Positions 146-22,072 of a stretch of 36,785 bases of DNA are shown in pieces (positions within the stretch are counted from its first letter, which is position 1; each line of letters opens with the position of its first letter). Origin of the DNA: an uncultured Porphyromonadaceae bacterium (GTDB lineage Bacteria > Bacteroidota > Bacteroidia > Bacteroidales > Muribaculaceae). The position numbers were made by a program, and so were the translations under genes. The notes below the pieces were generated by a model. The model made no database searches. It was not told the DNA's origin and saw only the letters and a list, made by a program, of their open reading frames with translations. Location: NCBI GenBank assembly GCA_945231345.1, contig CALYOL010000003.1:1-36785 (forward strand), written 5' to 3'.

Positions 146-1849
146 CTAATTGACAATCACTTTAGCCCTGTCATTTCCTACGACAACAATATATGCTCCA
201 GGCAATAGTTGGGGTGCAACAATTTCTTCATTTGAGTATATTAATACTTTATATACAACATCTCCACAAAGACTATATATCCTACACTCTTCACTTGCGT
301 GCCCTATTACATTAATTACTCCATGCCCCACAGAAATATGCTTGTTCCGACTCATTTCCATACTTTCCGATGAAGCATCTTCAAATGCCAACTTAATAGT
401 TGCGTCTACCACATGACCATTTGAATTTACACTCAAATAAACTTCTCGGTCTCCTACTACAGATTCAATGGGAGCAACTACAAGATTTCCATTTACTATT
501 TCCGCCGTAAAATCGTCAGAAGAAACGCCGATGACGCTTTTTATGATTGCCGAGTCAAGATTGTCCTTATCTGTAGCCCAACCATGTAATAATATTTCCG
601 ACTCCGAACTTCCGCTAACTCTCTGTACACCCAAGTCTGAAACCTCTGGATATTCATTATCAGGAAAGACAGGTACTGACGGGAACCAGTAATTAGTAAT
701 CATGTCATATTCTGCAAGTATTTTGCCGTCTTTATCATATCGACGAAGTATATATGTAGGTGTCTGAAAATTATGAAACAGAGAAACAAACATTTCACCT
801 GTAACAGGATGCGGACGCATTGAACAACCATATATTTGCCATTTAGAATTATCATCAACTCCCTGTTCTTCCGCTTCATCATCTAAATCTATGATTTTAC
901 TGAACTCACCATTGTCTAGATTGTATTTGAAAATCATAGAGCCAGAAAACCAAGAATTATACCCTCCATTCCAGTACAGCGCATTTTCTACTGTTGATGA
1001 ACAAAATCCGTCAGGTGTCCACGCATACCAAGAATTTGCAGGAGGATAATAACCATCTGGCACATCAATCACTCTCACTGAAAGATTTGCCGGATTAACT
1101 TTTAGTAGATACGGCAGTGTAGCACCTGTGCCATTTACATCTGCAGACACACTTACATACACATATCCATCACCTCCAAGGACTACCGAGCCGACCCCTG
1201 CATCGTCGTTTATTATACTCATGGATAATATTTCAGTCACCTCATCATTATCCGGGTCTATTACCAATACACCGGCAGACTGGTGAGCAACGAAAACGCG
1301 ATTATTCACTCTAACCATTGAGCCACATTGCCCTAAGTACAATGAACCGCTACTGTTTCCGCTGCCTTTCACCTGTCCGATTACCTGATATTTGTCCGTA
1401 TCAAACACCCATACACCATTACTTGAAGATATATAGCCTTTATGCTCATTAATTCCGAGATAGCCTCTACCATCACACGAAGCTCCTGACGGATCTATGA
1501 GAGGGGATTGAAATAATACTTTCATAGTCTTTGCATCAGCAACAGTAATGCGCCCTCCCTCAATACTTGCTCCAGGGTCTTTTTCTTGCTTGGCTATAAG
1601 ATAAAACCTGTCACCATATATTTGACCATATTGATTGGTGCAACCCAGTTCCACTCCGGGATTAACAGTTTGGATAACTCGGTACAACCATTGCTCACCT
1701 TCATCATTTTGATAATCTAAATAGTTTATTGTAGAATTTTGGTGACCATACCAATCCTCATTAACAATAAACACGCCTCTGCTGAAATCCAAGTTTCCGG
1801 CAGAAATATACAATGAAGTAATAAAAAGAAGTGTAAAATATTTTCTCAT
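146..1849 (-). CDS. Secreted DUF5074/YncE-like beta-propeller protein with T9SS sorting domain
   Basis: 567 aa. Residues 1-17 form a signal peptide. Residues about 18-400 form a BtuG/DUF5074-type propeller that begins with 'GVFIVNEDWYGHQNSTINYL', the same opening as the propeller inside the 972-aa protein two genes upstream, so the two are paralogues. Residues about 495-567 look like a type A type IX secretion sorting domain (short beta strands, 'LLPGAYIVVV', ending 'KVIVN'). BtuG propellers bind cobalamin very tightly at the cell surface; a B12-binding role here is inferred from homology and from being the last gene of a cobalamin-riboswitch operon. It has no lipobox, so it would reach the surface through T9SS rather than as a lipoprotein. 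The gap to the upstream gene is 13 nt. The propeller call is firm; ligand and exact role are not. Confidence 0.82.
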   Translation of the reverse strand: MRKYFTLLFITSLYISAGNLDFSRGVFIVNEDWYGHQNSTINYLDYQNDEGEQWLYRVIQTVNPGVELGCTNQYGQIYGDRFYLIAKQEKDPGASIEGGRITVADAKTMKVLFQSPLIDPSGASCDGRGYLGINEHKGYISSSNGVWVFDTDKYQVIGQVKGSGNSSGSLYLGQCGSMVRVNNRVFVAHQSAGVLVIDPDNDEVTEILSMSIINDDAGVGSVVLGGDGYVYVSVSADVNGTGATLPYLLKVNPANLSVRVIDVPDGYYPPANSWYAWTPDGFCSSTVENALYWNGGYNSWFSGSMIFKYNLDNGEFSKIIDLDDEAEEQGVDDNSKWQIYGCSMRPHPVTGEMFVSLFHNFQTPTYILRRYDKDGKILAEYDMITNYWFPSVPVFPDNEYPEVSDLGVQRVSGSSESEILLHGWATDKDNLDSAIIKSVIGVSSDDFTAEIVNGNLVVAPIESVVGDREVYLSVNSNGHVVDATIKLAFEDASSESMEMSRNKHISVGHGVINVIGHASEECRIYSLCGDVVYKVLIYSNEEIVAPQLLPGAYIVVVGNDRAKVIVN

Positions 1850-1862
1850 TTTTTTAATCTAT

Positions 1863-3068
1863 TTAGTCAGGTAATTTTGTTTCTGGAATATGCAGGTCTC
1901 TTGCCCCGGAAATCTCCGTAGAGGTTTCACCAATCCACCCACAATACTGATTAATTCCTGTCATAACCCTTACATAATCAATAGCTGGAAGATTTACATA
2001 ATTTCCGTCTTCATCTACAGCCCATGAAATGTCAAACGAATTTAACTCTTCGTATTCATTAGGATGGTTGTCTACATATCCCCAGTCATATGAATACAGT
2101 ACATAGTAGCGTCCTATGCCACTTGTGTCTTCTGCATTTTGAGCGAGACAGGTGCCACAAAAAGACACACTTTCGCCCGAATACCATTTAGGATAATAAT
2201 CCTGCGTGTGAAAACTATTTTTTGCCACATATCCTGTTTTACCCAAACTATCTATCCATGGGATATAGGTAGCGTCTGTAAGGAATCCATCAGGTGACGG
2301 TTTTTTGTCAATGTCCGGACGGTAATATGTAATGGAATAGCCATGTAGCGTCTCCGGCTTATAATATTCACTACCGGCAAGTTCATACCATTTATCATCG
2401 GCAATACCATTGCAATTTTCGTCATACGAAACAAAGACAATCCCTGGCTCTGCTGAGCCTCCTTTCTTTTCCGGATTATTCAGTTCATAAAAGGCATTCC
2501 CGGTAATTAAAAAATCATATCCCGGCAAATTCATCACAGTATGGTCAAATCTGAACGTAACATAACCACCATATGCACCAAGTGAAATCATCACATTATT
2601 CTGTCCACCGATACATTCTTGAGCTTTCCTCACCATGTCGGCATTAGTGTCACCATCCTCATATTGCGGCATTTCATTTATAAATTGCCCCGGAGCAGGA
2701 TTATACTCTATCACTTCTGAAATGTAAGGACTATATTCCACTTCCTCATGCATTACCGTCACCCTGAAATCATGATGATATGGAGTGAAATCATCTATAA
2801 TGTCAAATGAAATGTCATAAGTTCCCTCCTCCGCAGCTATAAATAACAGCCTATCAGACGTAGACATCAACGAATCTATTTCATTTTTGCAATGTAAAGT
2901 CCAGCGATATTCACATCCTGTAAAAGAAGACTTAAGTTCAAGTTTTGTCATACGAGATAGATAGTATTCGCTCTCAATTCCGAGATTTACCATCTGTATA
3001 TCTTCACAACATGACGTAAAACCTAACACCGTCAAAACTATAACAAACAGTATTAAAGAATATTTCAT
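1863..3068 (-). CDS. Surface lipoprotein of the B12 operon (PKD/Ig-like, unknown function)
   Basis: 401 aa from ATG at 3068; a longer in-frame start at 3092 would place 8 extra residues before a good lipoprotein signal, so the inner start is chosen. The signal peptide is 'MKYSLILFVIVLTVLGFTSC', with lipidation expected at the first Cys of TSCCED. Residues about 25-100 look like a PKD/Ig-type beta domain. The rest is a mostly beta domain with several Tyr, Trp and Gly motifs (for example 'WYELAGSEYY', 'YDWGYVDNHPNEYE', 'NQYCGWIGE'). Similar 'cell surface proteins' occur beside BtuB-BtuG in Bacteroides B12 loci, which also encode the cobalamin-binding lipoprotein BtuH; whether this is a BtuH homologue cannot be settled by eye. 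A terminator-like hairpin lies just upstream and may tune its level. Confidence 0.78.
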   Translation of the reverse strand: MKYSLILFVIVLTVLGFTSCCEDIQMVNLGIESEYYLSRMTKLELKSSFTGCEYRWTLHCKNEIDSLMSTSDRLLFIAAEEGTYDISFDIIDDFTPYHHDFRVTVMHEEVEYSPYISEVIEYNPAPGQFINEMPQYEDGDTNADMVRKAQECIGGQNNVMISLGAYGGYVTFRFDHTVMNLPGYDFLITGNAFYELNNPEKKGGSAEPGIVFVSYDENCNGIADDKWYELAGSEYYKPETLHGYSITYYRPDIDKKPSPDGFLTDATYIPWIDSLGKTGYVAKNSFHTQDYYPKWYSGESVSFCGTCLAQNAEDTSGIGRYYVLYSYDWGYVDNHPNEYEELNSFDISWAVDEDGNYVNLPAIDYVRVMTGINQYCGWIGETSTEISGARDLHIPETKLPD

Positions 3069-3078
3069 AATAAAAGAA

Positions 3079-3114
3079 ATCGTCGGGAGCATGACTAAGC
3101 ATTCTCCTGACGAT
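3079..3114 (-). terminator. Intercistronic terminator-like hairpin
   Basis: Arms 3079-3089 and 3104-3114 (ATCGTCGGGAG / CTCCTGACGAT) pair over 11 positions with one mismatch in the RNA. On the minus strand the stem is followed by TTTCTTTTATT and then, within about 12 nt, by the start of the lipoprotein gene. It lies inside the operon, so it could be a leaky attenuator or an RNA-processing and stability element that separates the first three genes from the last two. Confidence 0.5.
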
Positions 3115-3132
3115 TTTCTGTTTTTACAATGA

Positions 3133-6051
3133 TTAGAGAATTATTTTTTTAATTATGTTTGATGTCTTAACAAGATAAACACCTTTTGGAAGATTTAAGC
3201 AAGTAGAGAATCTTTCCGAAGTGATTGCCACTGTATCAACATTGCGCCCTGTCATGTCATATACATAGACAATATCTCCAAAAAGTCCTTCTGCCTTAAG
3301 TATGTTACCTTCAACGTAGATTTTTGCGACAGACGTTACACCATCTATTGCATTAGCTTTATCTATCACTACATTGACTGTATGCTCTACCACCACACCT
3401 CGTGATTCCGCATAGATAGTAATATTTGCACTACTTTCAATATCTTTAGATGTCACTATGAGATTCTTGCCATCAATCCTCACATCCGCAATAGCAGACG
3501 CATTTTTAGCATCCACTGAATATTTGATATTGTAGTTAACATCATCCTTATCATTTACAAAATCACTGAGGTCGTAAGTATTCGTTTCACTTGGTTTCAC
3601 ATAGACACAATCAAATCCAGTAAACTCCGGTTCAAATCTATCTACCATAACCGGCATAGCTGGGAAGAAATATCCAGGACGGAGTTTTGTAGTATAATTT
3701 AATTCGCCTGTAGTTCCGTCAATGAAATAATACCATACATTTCGATAATTTGAAGACGATCCACTTGTACATGACACAAGTATCTGATTTGTCGCCACAT
3801 CATAACCGATTGAGCCATAACCACTTGTTGATGCTCCTTCTAATTTTCCTTCCAGTCCTTCTATTGTAAAAAATGGTTCTGTAGGCATCTCATCATCAAC
3901 ATTCCACTTATACACATTACTGAAAGAACCCCATGATGCTCCATTAAAGAAGATTACATTTTCTTTCTTTGAGCCTACAAAGTTTGCTGAGCGCCATGAC
4001 CCCCATCCTGCATCAACACTTACTGGAGCAACTATAGGTTCACTCACTTCTAGTGTTTCAGCATCAATACAATAAATATTATTACCTGCAGCAAACCACA
4101 CTCTACCATCTGCTGTCTGAGTGACTCCTGCTGACTTTGTATCTGAAATGGTTGTTACTAACTCATCGGTTTCACCATCTACTATATGCAGACCGGTAGA
4201 TTGTTGACAAATGAACACATATTTTCCTGCACATACCATATCACCAATCTGACCGCTATATGCGTTCTTGCCAGCAATACCTTCAATGTTTGTTTCTGAG
4301 AGAACAAACTCATCACCCTCAACCGTAAGCACACGCACACCTGTTGCACTTCCGATGTAGTACTTATTAGGATTGACACCAACACAAGAGCGACCATCCG
4401 CACCAATTTCATCAAATGAAGCAAGACGTTTCAGCGTTTTGGCATCTGCTATCACAAGTCTGCCACCACCATCACGCAGGTCACCACCGTCTTTTGCCTG
4501 CTTAGACATTACCACAAGGCGATTTCCATAAACTGCAGCATACTGTGAAGTAGCACCAAAGCTCTGCCATGGATTTTCGCGCTCGTATGCCTTATATGTG
4601 ATATTGTACTCATCATCAACAAAATTAATAGAGCCATTATTATGACCAAACCATTCCTCGTTGAGCCAGAATTGTCCCTTAGTGTAGTCTATTTCCGCAT
4701 TGCGTTCACGGTCTTCCACTACAACTTTGAATCTTGCAGTTTTCCCGCTACCGTCTTTAGATTTATATGTAACGTATGTTTCACCCACATTGAAGGTGGT
4801 AAGTTCATAGAAGTTTCGAGTAGGATTAAATGCTTTCGCTGCATAGATAGTGAACAGTGTCGGGTCTTCAATTTCAATATCAAGAGTTTGCAACGATGCG
4901 TCTTCCGGTTCTACCGTATAGTTTACGGAAATCATTTCTTGATAGCCAATGTGGAGTTCACCGTTTTCATCAAGATTTTCAACTGTAATATTCTTGATAG
5001 GTGTTTCCACAGAAGTGTTTATAGTGAGAGAACAAGTTATAGTAGGGTCACTGTCGCTGACCGCTGTCAGAACTGTAGTACCAACGCCTGTAATAGAGAG
5101 TTTTCCGGTGCGTGAAGCATAAGAAGCAACAGAACCGTCGGAATTTGTGATAGTGAATGTGCCATAGTCTGCATCTTCCGGATATGTGACAATGCTTACT
5201 ATTGCAGTGTCCTTGTACTTCATATCTTTTACGTCGCCTAACACTTCCACATCGTCAAAAGCAAAGCGAATACCTGTGTAAGAAAGTGCACTATGTTCAT
5301 AGTCAAGCTCTCCCCATTTTATTGAAGAGCCCCACGGAGCATTGATATCCATATATCCCCAGCCATTCACGTCTCCATTTTTCAGTTTTACGGAACTCAT
5401 ACCAAGTCCTGAATATGAAAGAGCTGTCAAATCGCTGTCACCCACCCAATAGCTCCAGTAACCGAGGTACCAACCGGACTGCCAGAGAGAAGTGTAAGAA
5501 AGACTGTTGCATTTCCAGTGGTCGTAGTCGTAAGCAGGATAGCCGTATGCGTTCTTATCTATTGGGTGGTCTATCACATGCGACGTTTTGGCTTCATTGA
5601 TAGCATTTTCGCACAGCGTGGGCGTATCACCTGCCGGTGCAGACGTTTGCCCCATAAAAGAATTTACGGAAAAATAGTCAAAACTGATTTTTGGGTCATT
5701 TTGAGCGGTATCAAAGTCAAAATATACTCCGTCTATCATTTTTGAAGACTTGTCACAACCAATTCCGCAAAGAGTATTGCCCATAGAACCTGTATATTGC
5801 GTGAGAATATACAAATCGCCACAATCTTTTGCTACTGCACGAATCATATCCTCGCCTGTAGCTTCACCGCTCCAACGGTATCCCCAAACATAAGTCACGT
5901 CCTTGCCCATATTGTTAAAATGAACAAGTAGTGCGGCAATATTTTCACCACCAGCGTCTCCCGCCCAATACATAATGTCTCTAAACGACACTTCCTGTGC
6001 CTTTAGCAGTGAGGGCATCAAACAAATCAATAACAGTAATTTTTTGAACAT
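3133..6051 (-). CDS. Multidomain secreted protein: N-terminal surface domain, Ig-like domains, BtuG-like propeller, T9SS sorting domain
   Basis: 972 aa. A signal peptide ends near residue 18 (LLKA/QEV). Residues about 19-272 form a domain rich in Trp, Tyr and Gly ('DIMYWAGDAGGENIAALLVH', 'VTYVWGYRWSGEATGEDMIR', 'GYWSYWVGDSD', 'GDVNGWGYMDI'); similar unnamed domains occur in exported Bacteroidetes proteins. Residues about 273-450 are two Ig-like (Big-type) domains. Residues about 455-800 are a DUF5074/BtuG-like propeller, paralogous to the 567-aa protein. A further beta domain follows, then residues about 905-972 are a type A T9SS sorting domain ('YVYDMTGRNVDT', 'LPKGVYLVKTS'). The gene is third in a cobalamin-riboswitch operon, so capture of cobalamin or a related corrinoid is inferred; the N-terminal domain could be a second ligand- or surface-binding module. 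There is no lipobox. Confidence 0.85.
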   Translation of the reverse strand: MFKKLLLLICLMPSLLKAQEVSFRDIMYWAGDAGGENIAALLVHFNNMGKDVTYVWGYRWSGEATGEDMIRAVAKDCGDLYILTQYTGSMGNTLCGIGCDKSSKMIDGVYFDFDTAQNDPKISFDYFSVNSFMGQTSAPAGDTPTLCENAINEAKTSHVIDHPIDKNAYGYPAYDYDHWKCNSLSYTSLWQSGWYLGYWSYWVGDSDLTALSYSGLGMSSVKLKNGDVNGWGYMDINAPWGSSIKWGELDYEHSALSYTGIRFAFDDVEVLGDVKDMKYKDTAIVSIVTYPEDADYGTFTITNSDGSVASYASRTGKLSITGVGTTVLTAVSDSDPTITCSLTINTSVETPIKNITVENLDENGELHIGYQEMISVNYTVEPEDASLQTLDIEIEDPTLFTIYAAKAFNPTRNFYELTTFNVGETYVTYKSKDGSGKTARFKVVVEDRERNAEIDYTKGQFWLNEEWFGHNNGSINFVDDEYNITYKAYERENPWQSFGATSQYAAVYGNRLVVMSKQAKDGGDLRDGGGRLVIADAKTLKRLASFDEIGADGRSCVGVNPNKYYIGSATGVRVLTVEGDEFVLSETNIEGIAGKNAYSGQIGDMVCAGKYVFICQQSTGLHIVDGETDELVTTISDTKSAGVTQTADGRVWFAAGNNIYCIDAETLEVSEPIVAPVSVDAGWGSWRSANFVGSKKENVIFFNGASWGSFSNVYKWNVDDEMPTEPFFTIEGLEGKLEGASTSGYGSIGYDVATNQILVSCTSGSSSNYRNVWYYFIDGTTGELNYTTKLRPGYFFPAMPVMVDRFEPEFTGFDCVYVKPSETNTYDLSDFVNDKDDVNYNIKYSVDAKNASAIADVRIDGKNLIVTSKDIESSANITIYAESRGVVVEHTVNVVIDKANAIDGVTSVAKIYVEGNILKAEGLFGDIVYVYDMTGRNVDTVAITSERFSTCLNLPKGVYLVKTSNIIKKIIL

Positions 6052-6092
6052 AATAAAAATAAATTTTGTGGTTGATAAATATGAGAATTAAT

Positions 6093-7250
6093 TCAATTTC
6101 TAATTGGTAAAAACACTATGTGTGCCGGGATATCTCCTGTTCGCACACTCCATTTCTTTTTTCCTGACTTGTCAAAACAGTAAAGTGTCCCGCTGGAAAC
6201 GTAGTTTTTTGCATCAGTCACAAAAATATCGCCTGTTTCCGGATGGATGGCTATGCCGTATGGAATCGTGATGTCTTTTTCAGTTCCGTCTGTGATGAAA
6301 TTTTGAGACACAACTTCTTTTGTTGTTACATCAATAATTCCGTAAGTGATAGTGTTGGAAGACGTATAGTTGTTCCACTCCGTGGCGTAATAATACAGCG
6401 AATCACCATAAAATGCCATATTGGAACAAGCCACGGGAATGGTATCGGTAACAGTCATCTGATTGTACCCTCTTTTTTTCTCCATCACATATAGCCGTGA
6501 CGGAATATTCTCGTAATTGCCTCGCGATGTCACCCACAGCTTGCCATATTTGTCTTTTTTCAAGCGATGAAGGTTTATACCAACCGGTATTTGCCGAACC
6601 TGCTTGAAATCTACCATCTGAATCACTGAAACAGTATTATCATAGTTCGGTGCACGATAGCCGCCGGAGTTGGCAACATACATATAGTCGCCAATGATTT
6701 CCATTTCCTCCGGCTGATACCCTACTGATACTTTTCCTGTTATTTCAAGAGAAAGTGTATCCACACGATATACTGCCCCCTTTGGAGCATCAGGGTCTAT
6801 GCGGACTGGTCCTACGTATGAACTCACGTATGCTGAGCCACGATAGAAACGAACATAACGGCAATTGGGAATATCGACCTGCCCTAACCTAATTCCTGTT
6901 TTAGCATCCATAACCTCAACCTTATGACTACAGTTAACAACCACATACATTTTACTTCCATATATACCAATGTCATTACCCACGTCACCTAATTCCTTGA
7001 CCACGTTAGGATTTCGTTCTGCATATATGTTCCTCGCATATAGTCCCGTAAAATAGTCAAGATAGTCAATAGTGCATTTATTAGACCCCATATTGCCCTC
7101 GTTCACAAGATAGAAACCACGGATATTTGTGTTCTCTCCAGGAAAATCCGAAATAATATCATACTCTGTAGGCACCACAAGTTCGTCTTCTCGACAACCT
7201 GTGATGCTAAAGAGTATTGACAGAAATAGAAAGTAATATGTATTTTTCAT
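6093..7250 (-). CDS. btuG: BtuG-like surface cobalamin-binding lipoprotein (YncE-type beta-propeller)
   Basis: 385 aa. The N-terminus is a lipoprotein signal with lipobox 'SITGC', and lipidation is expected at the Cys. The body is a YncE-like seven-bladed propeller ('GFYLVNEGNMGSNKCTIDYL', 'YVANSGGY', 'PYGIAIHPETGDIFVTDAKN'). In Bacteroides, BtuG caps the TonB-dependent receptor BtuB on the outer surface and passes captured vitamin B12 to it. Here the gene lies 4 nt downstream of a btuB-like gene in the same riboswitch-controlled transcript, exactly the known arrangement. Of the three propellers in the operon, this short lipidated one best matches BtuG in length and architecture. The start codon follows directly from the signal peptide. 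Family and role are well supported by sequence plus context. Confidence 0.9.
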   Translation of the reverse strand: MKNTYYFLFLSILFSITGCREDELVVPTEYDIISDFPGENTNIRGFYLVNEGNMGSNKCTIDYLDYFTGLYARNIYAERNPNVVKELGDVGNDIGIYGSKMYVVVNCSHKVEVMDAKTGIRLGQVDIPNCRYVRFYRGSAYVSSYVGPVRIDPDAPKGAVYRVDTLSLEITGKVSVGYQPEEMEIIGDYMYVANSGGYRAPNYDNTVSVIQMVDFKQVRQIPVGINLHRLKKDKYGKLWVTSRGNYENIPSRLYVMEKKRGYNQMTVTDTIPVACSNMAFYGDSLYYYATEWNNYTSSNTITYGIIDVTTKEVVSQNFITDGTEKDITIPYGIAIHPETGDIFVTDAKNYVSSGTLYCFDKSGKKKWSVRTGDIPAHIVFLPIRN

Positions 7251-7254
7251 ATCG

Positions 7255-9252
7255 TTATATGTCTAACTGTAAGGTAAAACGATAATTTCTCTTAGGCATT
7301 GGATAATTTATTATCACATCATAATCCTGTGAAAATAGATTATTTATCTCCACACGAGCTTTGATTTTAAGGTTAGAGACAATAAATTCATGACACAATG
7401 CTATATCACTCGTATACCATGGCTGAGTATAATTGTAACGGATATTCTCCTGCTGATTATAGCGTTCACCCACATACATAAATGAATAATCCACAAACCA
7501 ATGCTTCCACCTCGCATTAAAAATTGCAGAGCCCGAATGGTGTGGAATATATGGAATCTGGTCTCGATAATAATTATCTGCCGGATTTGTAATATCTATT
7601 GCTCGCTGATATGTGTACTGTCCCCTGACAGTTAGGTCTATATCTGATGTAGGCGACATTGTTGCCTGCATGGTAGCATCTATGCCACGAATATCCACTA
7701 CTCCAAGATTCAGCATAGTCCATCTAAATTGTTGTCCTTTTGGATAAGCAACAATTTTGTCTTTAACCTTGTTATAGTACACATCAAGCATAAAACTAAA
7801 CCTTGAAAGCAACCTGCGACGGTTTCTGTCAAACGCAACCCCCATGTTATACTGCGTTACCCGCTCAGGATTTAACTTGGCGTTTCCCATATCTGCATAA
7901 TACAGGTCGTTAAACGTAGGCATTCTGAATGAACGTTTTGTGAATGCTCGGACTGTAAAATCTTTTGTATTAAATGGGTAGGTACCTACATATATAGCCG
8001 GTGTAAAACTACTTTTATCTGCGGGAGACTCCTTGCCTTTTACTTTATCATTCACAATTGTAGCGACAATAGAACCTCTCACTTTGACCCTGGCTAAATT
8101 GAGCGCTCCCGCTACAGATGTATAGTGGGTGAATCTTATAGGCTCTGCAAAGTCATACATATCTGCCTTAAGCCCATTCCACTGCAAATCATAACCCACA
8201 GAAGCCGAGAAACATCTTGTAACAGGCATCATTATTGCTATTGAACCATAAGCCTCTCTCTGCCTATACATATTGTCCACCTTTACAAGTTTGTCATCAT
8301 TGTTTATGTAATGAGTTCGATAAAAAGCATATTTTAAGTTTGTCAAAAGCGAAAACTTATTCAACTGTCTTTCTAACCGTACTTGTACAAAACTGTTTGT
8401 ATCCCAAATTCTTTCACCTCTACGCCACACATTATTTACAATAGCACCAGGGACTCCACGCTCTGAATTATAATTATAGCCCTTTATGCTCCACAGTCCA
8501 TGGGATATTTCACCATTTAGGTTAAATTCAAGTCTTGTTGCATTTATGTCTCCGTTTTGGCGTACTGCCGTTGTATCATAGGCAAGTTCTCCCGCAGGAT
8601 TTACTCTTCTATACCTGAATTTATATTTGCCTGATGAGTTCAACCATTCAACACTCATCTGTGCACTCACTTTTTCAGATAATTTCAGTTCTACCATTGC
8701 AGAAGGATTGAGTAAGTCAAAAGACCCTGTCTTAAATGTCGCTTTGGCATGATATGTTTCTCCATAGTTAAATTCCGGAACTCGTGTTTTAATATATACA
8801 GCCGCTGCACTGCCATAGTCACGTGCCGGCTGCAATATATCTGCCTTATTTCCATTGTATAACGATATAACTTCTACATTATCCAATGAAAACTGTCCTA
8901 AGTCTATCTGACCATTTTGGGCGTTCCCAAGCATGACACCATCGTAACTTACTGCTGTATGGTTTGTTCCCATAGAACGAACATTGATGGTCTTAATGCC
9001 TCCAACACCTCCATAATCTTTTACCTGTACACCGGAAAAGTATCTCATCGCATCAGCCACAGACAGGCTGTTCATGCGACGTAAGTCCTCACCCACAAGA
9101 CGTTGAACGGTGACGACCTCCTCAATGGGTCGCCTCCTTCCTATTACGTTTATTTCAGACAGAAACACGCTGTCTTTCATTTCCTGACCATAGCTTGGCA
9201 CAACGTAAAGCGCCGCAATTGCCATGGCGCAAAAGCGATTTCTAAAACTCAT
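7255..9252 (-). CDS. btuB: BtuB-like TonB-dependent outer-membrane cobalamin receptor
   Basis: 665 aa from ATG at 9252; a TTG codon just before it is an unlikely start. The signal peptide ends at 'SYGQ'. The plug domain covers residues about 25-150 ('MKDSVFLSEINVIGRRRPIE', 'INVRSMGTNHTAVSYDGVML', 'VEVISLYNG'). The rest is a 22-strand-type beta barrel ending in 'YRFTLQLDI', with a terminal aromatic/hydrophobic pattern suited to BAM insertion. There is no N-terminal carboxypeptidase-like extension, so it is a compact BtuB-type rather than SusC-type receptor. It would import B12 into the periplasm using TonB energy, partnered by the BtuG-like lipoprotein immediately downstream. It is the first gene after the cobalamin riboswitch, which would repress it when B12 is plentiful. 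No btuCDF genes lie in the window. Confidence 0.92.
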   Translation of the reverse strand: MSFRNRFCAMAIAALYVVPSYGQEMKDSVFLSEINVIGRRRPIEEVVTVQRLVGEDLRRMNSLSVADAMRYFSGVQVKDYGGVGGIKTINVRSMGTNHTAVSYDGVMLGNAQNGQIDLGQFSLDNVEVISLYNGNKADILQPARDYGSAAAVYIKTRVPEFNYGETYHAKATFKTGSFDLLNPSAMVELKLSEKVSAQMSVEWLNSSGKYKFRYRRVNPAGELAYDTTAVRQNGDINATRLEFNLNGEISHGLWSIKGYNYNSERGVPGAIVNNVWRRGERIWDTNSFVQVRLERQLNKFSLLTNLKYAFYRTHYINNDDKLVKVDNMYRQREAYGSIAIMMPVTRCFSASVGYDLQWNGLKADMYDFAEPIRFTHYTSVAGALNLARVKVRGSIVATIVNDKVKGKESPADKSSFTPAIYVGTYPFNTKDFTVRAFTKRSFRMPTFNDLYYADMGNAKLNPERVTQYNMGVAFDRNRRRLLSRFSFMLDVYYNKVKDKIVAYPKGQQFRWTMLNLGVVDIRGIDATMQATMSPTSDIDLTVRGQYTYQRAIDITNPADNYYRDQIPYIPHHSGSAIFNARWKHWFVDYSFMYVGERYNQQENIRYNYTQPWYTSDIALCHEFIVSNLKIKARVEINNLFSQDYDVIINYPMPKRNYRFTLQLDI

Positions 9253-9265
9253 CAATTATCACTCG

Positions 9266-9404
9266 TTTGACAGTTAATATTTAAATATATTCTGCCAAAC
9301 TGCGATTATTGATGCGATTAATTATCATGGGATACACAAGAAATACACGCACAAGCTCTCATATTCCATGAGCTAATAATGCGTACCGGTGAGATACTCT
9401 CACC
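9266..9404 (-). promoter_or_regulatory. Structured leader between riboswitch and btuB
   Basis: This 5'-UTR stretch contains no gene. In the transcript it holds a perfect 7-bp hairpin with a 3-nt loop (9388-9404, GGUGAGA-GUA-UCUCACC), a weaker stem around 9355-9380 (CUCAU/AUGAG core), and an 8-bp stem including one G-U pair (UUUGGCAG / CUGUCAAA, arms 9266-9273 and 9292-9299) enclosing the palindrome AUAUUUAAAUAU. The last stem ends 13 nt before the btuB start codon. No poly-U tract follows any of them, so they look more like a translational or alternative-folding expression platform than a terminator. Confidence 0.5.
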
Positions 9405-9460
9405 TTTGTAAAAATCATGCTACTCGTCCTCGCAAGTTTCTGACAGAAAATATTAAAAAT

Positions 9461-9638
9461 GGCAGGTCTTCTGACTTGTCCTCCTCTTTGGCGTCTTCCC
9501 AAACACCTTGCCGGTATTCAGTGACATTATGCCAAAAAGAACTATTTGGACTTACAGCAGCGGGACTGTTCAGGACTCTCACCTGATTCCCTATTAAGCA
9601 GCATCCCCTCTATTGGGTAGCCCTGGTAAGCACCATTT
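9461..9638 (-). promoter_or_regulatory. Cobalamin riboswitch (class I-like)
   Basis: Read on the minus strand, this leader holds the conserved cobalamin aptamer elements in order: GGUGCUUACC near the 5' end, GGGAAUCAGGUGAGAGUCCUG, ACAGUCCCGCUGCUGUAA, the UCACUG element (9519-9524, usually CCACUG), and the B12 box AAGUCAGAAGACCUGCC at 9461-9477. A promoter -7 element lies directly upstream. It would sense adenosylcobalamin or a related corrinoid and reduce expression of the five downstream genes. The length of about 180 nt and near-perfect B12 box make the call very secure. Confidence 0.95.
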
Positions 9639-9644
9639 TCGACG

Positions 9645-9652
9645 CAAATTTA
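9645..9652 (-). promoter_or_regulatory. Bacteroidetes promoter -7 element for the B12 operon
   Basis: TAAATTTG on the minus strand matches the TAnnTTTG consensus of Bacteroidetes sigma-ABfr promoters. Transcription would start around 9638-9640, just at the 5' edge of the riboswitch aptamer. I see no good TTTG at -33. Confidence 0.65.
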
Positions 9653-20482: not shown

Positions 20483-22072
20483 ATGAAGAAATTATACGTA
20501 ACAGCATTTGCACTGGCTTTGACTGCCACTTGCTCTGCAGAATCAGCAGTTGATGCATATCAACTGTCACAATCAGACCTAAGAGGCTCAGCAAGATTTG
20601 TATCTATGGGCGGAGCGTTCACTGCATTAGGCGGTGATATATCCACACTAAACCAAAATCCGGCAGGCATAGGTATATATAGAAAGAGCGAAATCGGATT
20701 TACACTTGACATTAATATGACAAGTTCAGACGTCAGCTCTAACGTAGGGCATTTCAAAGAAGACAAGACACACACGTTCTGTAACAACTTCGGCTATATA
20801 GGTTCTGTAAGCCTGGACAGTGACGTCATGAAGACTTTCAACTGGGGCGTTTCGTACTCAAGAGTCGCAAGTTTTAATCGTTCTTATCGCATGGGCGGTG
20901 GTGACCGATACCCTATTCTGAGCAATTCCATCACTAACTATATTGCATCATTCACAAACTGCGACGTGTCCGACCTGGAATTTGGTGGAGGCGACTATCC
21001 AGACTACAACCCATATTTTGGTGATGCAGATTGGCTAAGCGTACTCGCTCATCAGAGCTATCTCATTTCAAACGACGGCAAGAATAGCTATAATGGACTT
21101 TGGCAACAGGGCTCAACGTCTGGCGATATGCAAGCGTTGATTAAAGAGCGAGGATATGTTGATGAGTATTCTATTGATTTTGGTGGAAACATCTGCGATG
21201 TAGTTTACTGGGGATTAGGCTTCGGCATCACTGATATCAGTTATAATGAATTTACAATCTATGACGAAGAATTGCAGAACGCTTGCGTACCTAATACTAA
21301 TGCCGGTTGGAAAAATGGAAATGGCGGCTTTACGATGGAAAACCATAAACTAATCACAGGTTCCGGCTTCAACTTTAAGACAGGACTTATCTTTAAGCCT
21401 ATCAATGAGTTTCGTTTAGGTATAGCAGTTCATACCCCAACCTACTACAAACTAACACAGGACTTCAAAGCATATTCCGACTATTCTTTTGACGTAAACG
21501 GAGAGTCCGTAAAAGGAAGCGTTGAGACAGAACTTGGATATTTTGATTGGAAACTGCAGACGCCATGGAAGCTAATGTTTGGAGCTGCCGCAGTAATTGG
21601 CGGACGTGGTATAATCAGTATGGACTATGAGTATGCCGCATACGACAAAATGGACGTAAGCGACCGATATGATATATACGACTACAGCCTCATTAACGAG
21701 GATATATCTACATACTATAAGCCTCAGCATACAGTACGTATTGGTGGCGAATTTCGCGTAACTCCAGACTTTTCTCTCCGCGCAGGTTATAATTATCAGA
21801 AATCCGGTGTGGAAAAGGATGCACAGGATGGAAATATCGAAGTATATACCACCGGGACTAATCCGGCTTACAGCATGGACAAAAAGACGGAATATATCAC
21901 TTTCGGTTTAGGATACAAATATCAGGCTTTTTATGCAGACCTCGCGTATGTATATAAGCATCGCTCTTCATACTATTACACACACCGTATGTTCAACGGT
22001 TACAAGCCTTACAAACACATTCTTGACACCGAAGAAAACAATATTGTAATTTCACTCGGTTTTAAGTTCTAA
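20483..22072 (+). CDS. OmpP1/FadL-type outer-membrane protein
   Basis: 529 aa. A signal peptide ends near residue 19 ('TATCSA/ES'). The opening 'SARFVSMGGAFTALGGDIST' followed by 'LNQNPAGIGIYRKSEI' is the typical FadL/TodX N-terminal signature, and the rest alternates as beta-barrel strands to a final aromatic residue ('NNIVISLGFKF'). Relatives in Bacteroidales are often labelled 'hemin receptor', without strong evidence; FadL proteins let hydrophobic compounds across the outer membrane. The substrate is unknown. The gene is followed by a strong terminator. I see no clear -7/-33 pair in the 145-nt gap upstream, so it may partly be read through from the preceding gene. Confidence 0.88.
   Translation: MKKLYVTAFALALTATCSAESAVDAYQLSQSDLRGSARFVSMGGAFTALGGDISTLNQNPAGIGIYRKSEIGFTLDINMTSSDVSSNVGHFKEDKTHTFCNNFGYIGSVSLDSDVMKTFNWGVSYSRVASFNRSYRMGGGDRYPILSNSITNYIASFTNCDVSDLEFGGGDYPDYNPYFGDADWLSVLAHQSYLISNDGKNSYNGLWQQGSTSGDMQALIKERGYVDEYSIDFGGNICDVVYWGLGFGITDISYNEFTIYDEELQNACVPNTNAGWKNGNGGFTMENHKLITGSGFNFKTGLIFKPINEFRLGIAVHTPTYYKLTQDFKAYSDYSFDVNGESVKGSVETELGYFDWKLQTPWKLMFGAAAVIGGRGIISMDYEYAAYDKMDVSDRYDIYDYSLINEDISTYYKPQHTVRIGGEFRVTPDFSLRAGYNYQKSGVEKDAQDGNIEVYTTGTNPAYSMDKKTEYITFGLGYKYQAFYADLAYVYKHRSSYYYTHRMFNGYKPYKHILDTEENNIVISLGFKF

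Follow-up and report, generated by a model that had tools for sequence, protein, structure and literature searches.

A riboswitch-preceded cobamide-uptake operon of an uncultured Muribaculaceae bacterium, with BtuK-type propellers predicted to be displayed by type IX secretion

The btu loci of Bacteroides thetaiotaomicron, the closest described systems, have been reported to combine a cobalamin riboswitch, the receptor BtuB with the lipoprotein BtuG as its lid, the lipoprotein BtuH and a BtuK-type propeller, their extra binders being lipoproteins (PMC12751083, PMC10404256, PMC8941943). In this work we analysed a 36,785-bp stretch, hereafter the window, which is one whole contig (CALYOL010000003.1, assembly GCA_945231345.1) of the 1.93-Mb, 85% complete genome of an uncultured Porphyromonadaceae bacterium (GTDB family Muribaculaceae). 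It bears an operon in which a cobalamin riboswitch is followed by btuB, btuG, a gene for a 972-aa protein, a gene for a 409-aa protein and a gene for a 567-aa protein. The operon is of the known Bacteroidota cobamide-uptake kind, with its putative BtuK-type binders apparently shifted from lipid anchors to display by the type IX secretion system (T9SS). Unlike in B. thetaiotaomicron, the BtuK-type propellers here carry T9SS tails as cargo of that system, and one is fused to a domain, here called P3N, that finds no mention in the available text of the three reports cited above. What is new in this operon is P3N as a family, together with the fold predicted for it.

We estimate at about 70% the probability that this is a riboswitch-repressed cobamide-scavenging operon, with import by BtuB and BtuG and capture of cobamides by the lipid-anchored BtuH and the T9SS-displayed BtuK/P3N proteins. 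B12 would repress the operon through the riboswitch. BtuB would import B12 handed over by its lid, the lipoprotein BtuG, and the lipid-anchored BtuH would be a second B12 binder. The T9SS would carry the 567-aa and 972-aa proteins out of the cell for display on its outer surface, where the BtuK-type propeller of each most likely binds cobamides and P3N most likely also contacts the cobamide. The captured B12 would then pass from the displayed proteins to BtuG/BtuB.

A preliminary description of this DNA had placed a cobalamin riboswitch ahead of BtuB and BtuG, and the profile searches bear this out (Table 1). The best NCBIfam match of the receptor was TIGR01779 (TonB-B12; E-value 2.4e-26), under the equivalog cut-off of that model. 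The btuG product matched BtuG1 best in the PDB (8ptf/8blw, E ~2e-36; BtuG2, E 5e-17) and carries the NEGNM motif typical of the BtuG class. The locus thus has the features that define a Bacteroidota BtuBG cobamide-uptake operon, i.e. an upstream cobalamin riboswitch and btuB beside a btuG lipoprotein gene. At its other end lies a terminator-like hairpin (-26 kcal/mol for positions 60-145, z -4.8, 0 of 200 shuffles). Because this hairpin, with its 11-bp stem and T-rich tail, ends the gene series, the operon is probably complete, despite the contig edge ~80 bases past it.

The same description had proposed layered B12 capture by one receptor-bound lipoprotein and two T9SS-sorted scavengers. These stand as putative components, but a BtuH-type binder and a predicted transcobalamin-beta-like domain, the most unusual element of the operon, had been missed. 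The BtuH homologue is encoded by the fifth operon gene, located mid-operon (3092-1863). Searched against the PDB, its 409-aa product matched the H-domain of BtuGH (8blw, E 6e-68) and BtuH2 (7biz, E 7e-50). Six BtuH2 residues have been reported to form hydrogen bonds or polar contacts with B12 (PMC8941943), and five of them are identical in the 409-aa protein (Q136, N199, H295, Y329, W386), the sixth, W511, being replaced by Y330. Judged by homology and by these contact residues, the protein belongs to the BtuH family, and its N-terminal lipobox (...GFTSC) makes it a surface-lipoprotein candidate.

Table 1. Features of the operon, with positions in the window.
Feature	Positions	Strand	Evidence or remarks
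Cobalamin riboswitch aptamer RF00174, operon leader	9652-9444	minus	model matched over its full length at 102 bits (gathering score 31.5)
btuB-like TonB-dependent receptor gene, 666 aa	7255..9252 (ATG 9252; listed ORF start TTG 9255)	minus	Plug + TonB_dep_Rec
btuG-like beta-propeller surface lipoprotein gene, 385 aa	6093..7250	minus	lipobox ...SITGC, then acidic residues
972-aa fusion protein gene	3133..6051	minus	P3N domain joined by an Ig-like linker to a BtuK-type propeller; signal peptide at the N-terminus, T9SS tail at the C-terminus
P3N domain, aa 19-270 of the 972-aa protein	5242..5997	minus	alignments, AlphaFold model, Foldseek, separate gene in relatives
BtuK-type (DUF5074) propeller of the 972-aa protein, loop NEEWFGHNNGS	3652..4686	minus	PF16819, 340 bits
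T9SS type A C-terminal sorting domain, 972-aa protein	3133..3339	minus	TIGR04183 and own-genome profile
btuH-like lipoprotein gene, 409 aa	1863..3092	minus	PDB BtuH matches, contact residues
567-aa protein gene	146..1849	minus	BtuK-type propeller (aa 22-396) and Ig-like domain between a signal peptide and a T9SS tail
T9SS type A sorting domain, 567-aa protein	146..367	minus	TIGR04183, own-genome profile, strand-rich C-terminal segment in model
Terminator-like hairpin, operon end	~120-84	minus	11-bp G+C-rich stem, T-rich downstream, 3' of last stop codon

The propellers of the 972-aa and 567-aa proteins had been described as BtuG-like. Both are indeed propellers of the DUF5074 family (PF16819, 340 and 356 bits, respectively), but of the BtuK class; the BtuG of the operon scored only 72 bits with this model. 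In phmmer searches of the PDB the sole meaningful match was 9s6c (E 1e-5 for the 972-aa and 5e-8 for the 567-aa protein), and no BtuG chain was found among the matches at E 0.1. According to the Foldseek search, 9s6c is BtuK1, which came first for the model of the 567-aa protein (E 2.7e-13, template-modelling (TM) score 0.79 by target), followed by BtuK2 (4r5o) and BtuG. A BtuG identity of the extra propellers was rejected on the basis of this best match and of their loop, which reads NE[DE]W[YF]GH and not NEGN[MF]. The W[YFLQ]GH motif occurs in 107 of 118 DUF5074-class proteins and in none of 91 BtuG-class proteins, 83 of which have NEGN[MF]. Asn54-Thr64 of BtuG2, a loop reported to clamp B12 in simulations (PMC10404256), aligns with the stretch that varies least among BtuK-type propellers (NEDWYGHQNST here). 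The propellers of the operon share with BtuK1 the DUF5074 fold, the NExW[YF]GH loop and the best match in both sequence and structure. They differ from it in that BtuK1 is a lipoprotein, ~20% identical to them, whereas they lead T9SS tails; in the 567-aa protein an Ig-like domain and the tail lie C-terminal to the propeller. BtuK1 binds cobalamin with a Kd of 0.09 nM as measured by surface plasmon resonance (PMC12751083).

Sorting domains for the T9SS had also been proposed for both proteins. The generic model TIGR04183 (cut-off 23) gave 21.6 bits for the 972-aa tail and 19.6 bits for the 567-aa tail in hmmscan, and 27.8 and 22.2 bits, respectively, in a scan of the genome. A second profile was made from 19 further tails found in this genome, with 500 shuffles of each tail as control. 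It gave 31.6 bits for the 972-aa tail against a shuffle maximum of 11.7, and 21.3 bits for the 567-aa tail against 9.3; none of four other proteins from the region exceeded 1.6 bits. These scores, well above those of the shuffles, uphold the proposal. Both proteins have a signal peptide without a lipobox in addition to the C-terminal domain, which together characterize type A cargo, and in the modelled 567-aa protein the C-terminus forms a segment of its own, rich in strands. The check suggested earlier, for T9SS genes elsewhere in the genome, detected SprA (643 bits), PorV, cut into two pieces by a contig break, and PorU-type sortases, so that a lack of the T9SS is excluded. Sorting-domain matches number 32 in the genome, 25 of them over the family cut-off. 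Two full-length PorU-type sortases, not one, are encoded (901 and 556 bits, contigs 46 and 117), and the window itself contains, at 20483-22072, a gene for a FadL/TodX-type outer-membrane protein that is weakly PorV/PorQ-like near its C-terminus.

T9SS-like tails were then counted among 209 BtuG- and DUF5074-class proteins of related loci, counts which do not represent independent events because many of the loci come from closely related Chryseobacterium; signal peptides were typed by a crude rule. Such tails were present in 64 of 73 P3N-DUF5074 fusions, 31 of 45 other DUF5074 proteins and none of the 91 BtuG proteins, and 9 of 95 BtuH proteins from related loci had a T9SS-like tail score. The two classes differ consistently in their sorting signals, BtuG proteins lacking T9SS tails and DUF5074 proteins mostly having them. 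The tails could in principle be non-functional as T9SS signals and the two proteins periplasmic carriers like BtuF, as generic TIGR04183 scores at or below the curated cut-off might suggest. We consider this very improbable, since the own-genome scores far exceed those of shuffles and neighbours, the tails are kept in orthologues of T9SS lineages and absent from BtuG, and the model sets the C-terminal segment apart.

Proteins with type A sorting domains normally become attached to the cell surface. The earlier suggestion that the two proteins might be released to the medium, as soluble, corrinophore-like B12 traps, is not supported over surface attachment: the attaching enzyme is PorU, two PorU-type sortases are present, and no sign of release was found in the sequence. 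We thus regard release as improbable and surface attachment as the likelier fate, even though both proteins combine the lack of a lipobox with a secretion tail. A comparable trap is reported for B. thetaiotaomicron, whose secreted B12 capture relies on vesicles carrying BtuJ (PMC12751083).

P3N, the N-terminal domain of ~250 aa of the 972-aa protein, had no match in Pfam and no sequence match in a profile search of the PDB; an identity as DUF4465 or another Pfam domain was accordingly rejected. Its AlphaFold model, obtained from a 40-sequence alignment, had a mean predicted local distance difference test score (pLDDT) of 90.6 and a predicted TM score (pTM) of 0.89. In a Foldseek search of 350,542 PDB chains, ranks 1-13 and 15-18 were occupied by the animal B12 carriers transcobalamin, intrinsic factor and haptocorrin, and rank 14 by the bacterial protein 3u7z. 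The isolated transcobalamin beta-domain 5no0 aligned with a TM score of 0.67 by target, and P3N is predicted to resemble this domain in fold. The order of elements in the model (strands 19-26 and 34-42, helix 48-58, hairpin 62-81) agrees with the strand-strand-helix-hairpin order of the transcobalamin-like clade of SLBB domains (Burroughs et al., PMC1796856). That study does not list Bacteroidota for this clade, and it noted, in 2007, a fusion of a transcobalamin-like domain with a beta-propeller in Clostridium.

With the beta-domain of transcobalamin and intrinsic factor (PMC1796856), P3N would share, going by its model, a beta-grasp-like fold with a hairpin after the helix, and it has a secreted, B12-linked context in common. 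It differs in lacking a detectable DUF4430 match, in the long insertion of the operon's form and in its partner, a propeller in place of an alpha/alpha barrel. Assignment to DUF4430 by sequence is unsupported: PF14478 was matched by no member of the P3N alignment (A3). DUF4430 is rare in Bacteroidota (1 of 396 sampled genomes), and a plasmid search for its homologues returned two matches only, both chance-like. The SCO2322 family model NF040672 was weakly matched by 18 of 40 P3N members (best 5.6e-6, far below the family cut-off). The alignment also shows a C-terminal YWSYW...DGxxxxW motif, and the actinobacterial NF040672 family is a possible distant link. In transcobalamin the beta-domain closes over B12 held by the helical barrel. 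By analogy, we tentatively propose that P3N may be a new bacterial transcobalamin-beta-like family of cobamide-binding domains, found in gut and environmental Bacteroidota, which would close over the propeller-held cobamide as part of a T9SS-displayed two-domain clamp.

A scan with P3N alone of 84,980 species genomes yielded 130 relatives, and 80 of the loci were fetched. At least one of btuB, btuG and btuH was present in 76 of the 80 fetched stretches, and all three in 68. Riboswitches were called across these loci with a simple sequence motif, and when Rfam was run on 12 named loci, it upheld a B12 riboswitch in 9 of them. Chryseobacterium loci are arranged as riboswitch-btuB-btuG-btuH-[P3N-DUF5074-T9SS tail]. 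In the genome of Chryseobacterium sp. E1, which is complete, all genes of the operon appear split into short frames (L101:5402-12029), either through decay or through sequencing errors. P3N is a separate gene beside a DUF5074 gene in L040, a relative of the same genus that has the operon, as well as in several further Muribaculaceae; by this comparison the 972-aa protein is a natural fusion of the two. The domain is uncommon, having been found, besides the source genome, in 7 of the 396 sampled Bacteroidota genomes, and no relatives were found in the viral contigs searched.

Four P3N loci were without the core genes, namely a 3.8-kb fragment (L069), L117, L121 and L137. In L117 (Planctomycetota) RF00174 lies directly upstream of P3N, as does an AdoCbl-II riboswitch in L121 (Fibrimonadaceae, Fibrobacterota). 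PEP-CTERM-like tails are present at the C-terminus of the L137 protein and, judged by eye, of the L117 protein, and therefore surface sorting recurs with a different system. The P3N gene of L137 (Desulfobacterium, 3786-4698) stands behind a c-di-GMP-I riboswitch, not a B12 riboswitch, and has PEP-CTERM neighbours; a second, weak P3N gene is located at 852-1472. In Bacteroides salyersiae (L066:9311-14062) a 1412-aa protein joins P3N to an Ig domain and BspA-type leucine-rich repeats behind its own cobalamin riboswitch, adjoining a second riboswitch-btuB-btuG-btuH operon.

Several results weigh against cobamide capture by the T9SS-sorted proteins. BtuK2, a B. thetaiotaomicron paralogue similar to BtuK1, did not bind B12 (PMC12751083), and for this reason a BtuK-type propeller may have another role; since BtuK1 binds and BtuK2 does not, binding by both propellers is likely yet unproven. 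Under the generic model both T9SS tails score weakly, that of the 567-aa protein falling just below the cut-off. For the P3N model the best Foldseek E-value was 0.054, none being below 0.001, and hhalign of the P3N profile with a DUF4430 protein was not significant. Because no E-value fell below 0.05, the case for the likeness rests on the consistency of the matches and on the independent B12 context. The propellers and P3N might bind no B12 at all and instead have a structural or adhesive role at the surface of B12-starved cells, where they would, for instance, hold BtuB-G-H assemblies, bind host B12 carriers or mucin, or act in vesicle release, as reported for BtuL, which like BtuK2 does not bind B12 (PMC12751083). 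The long stretches beyond the propeller in large Muribaculaceae forms (~1800 aa) and the fusion of P3N to leucine-rich repeats in B. salyersiae would suit such a role. We nevertheless find it rather unlikely, as the propellers are closer to BtuK1 than to BtuK2, the nearest solved folds of P3N are all B12 carriers, and P3N occurs behind B12 riboswitches in distant phyla. Cobamide capture is the reading retained here.

The rest of the genome has what a scavenger would be expected to have. It encodes two proteins with B12-binding domains, of the size of MetH and methylmalonyl-CoA mutase, and CbiC was not found in the genome at its 85% completeness. A single further cobalamin riboswitch was found; it precedes a gene for a 261-aa DUF4465 (BtuJ-family) lipoprotein (L170:9491-10741, contig 47), which adds a candidate B12 binder of the jelly-roll type; a lipoprotein of this family is likewise reported for B. 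thetaiotaomicron. A further BtuG-type propeller lipoprotein of 352 aa is encoded on contig 14 (L169:1879-2937), where its gene stands alone, with neither btuB nor a riboswitch in the stretch fetched.

According to surveys of the DUF4465/BtuJ family (PMC13398666, PMC12751083), 38% of its members have C-terminal extracellular sorting regions, and ~40% of its larger cluster lie near PF16819. These are surface-sorted B12 binders too, differing in their jelly-roll fold, and none is encoded in this operon. As T9SS-tagged B12 binders are already implied by these surveys, T9SS display of the operon's binders is a variant of a known theme.

Gut communities are shaped by competition for B12, and from this operon it seems that, where a T9SS exists, some of the B12 binders reach the surface by this route instead of by lipid anchors. 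P3N, a domain so far without a name, is linked to B12 control in at least three phyla, and its predicted fold is similar to the B12-binding beta-domain of the animal carriers. Should it bind B12, it would be a new class of binder to compare with host intrinsic factor and transcobalamin, and would bear directly on the 2007 proposal of a bacterial origin for the transcobalamin-like proteins of animals.

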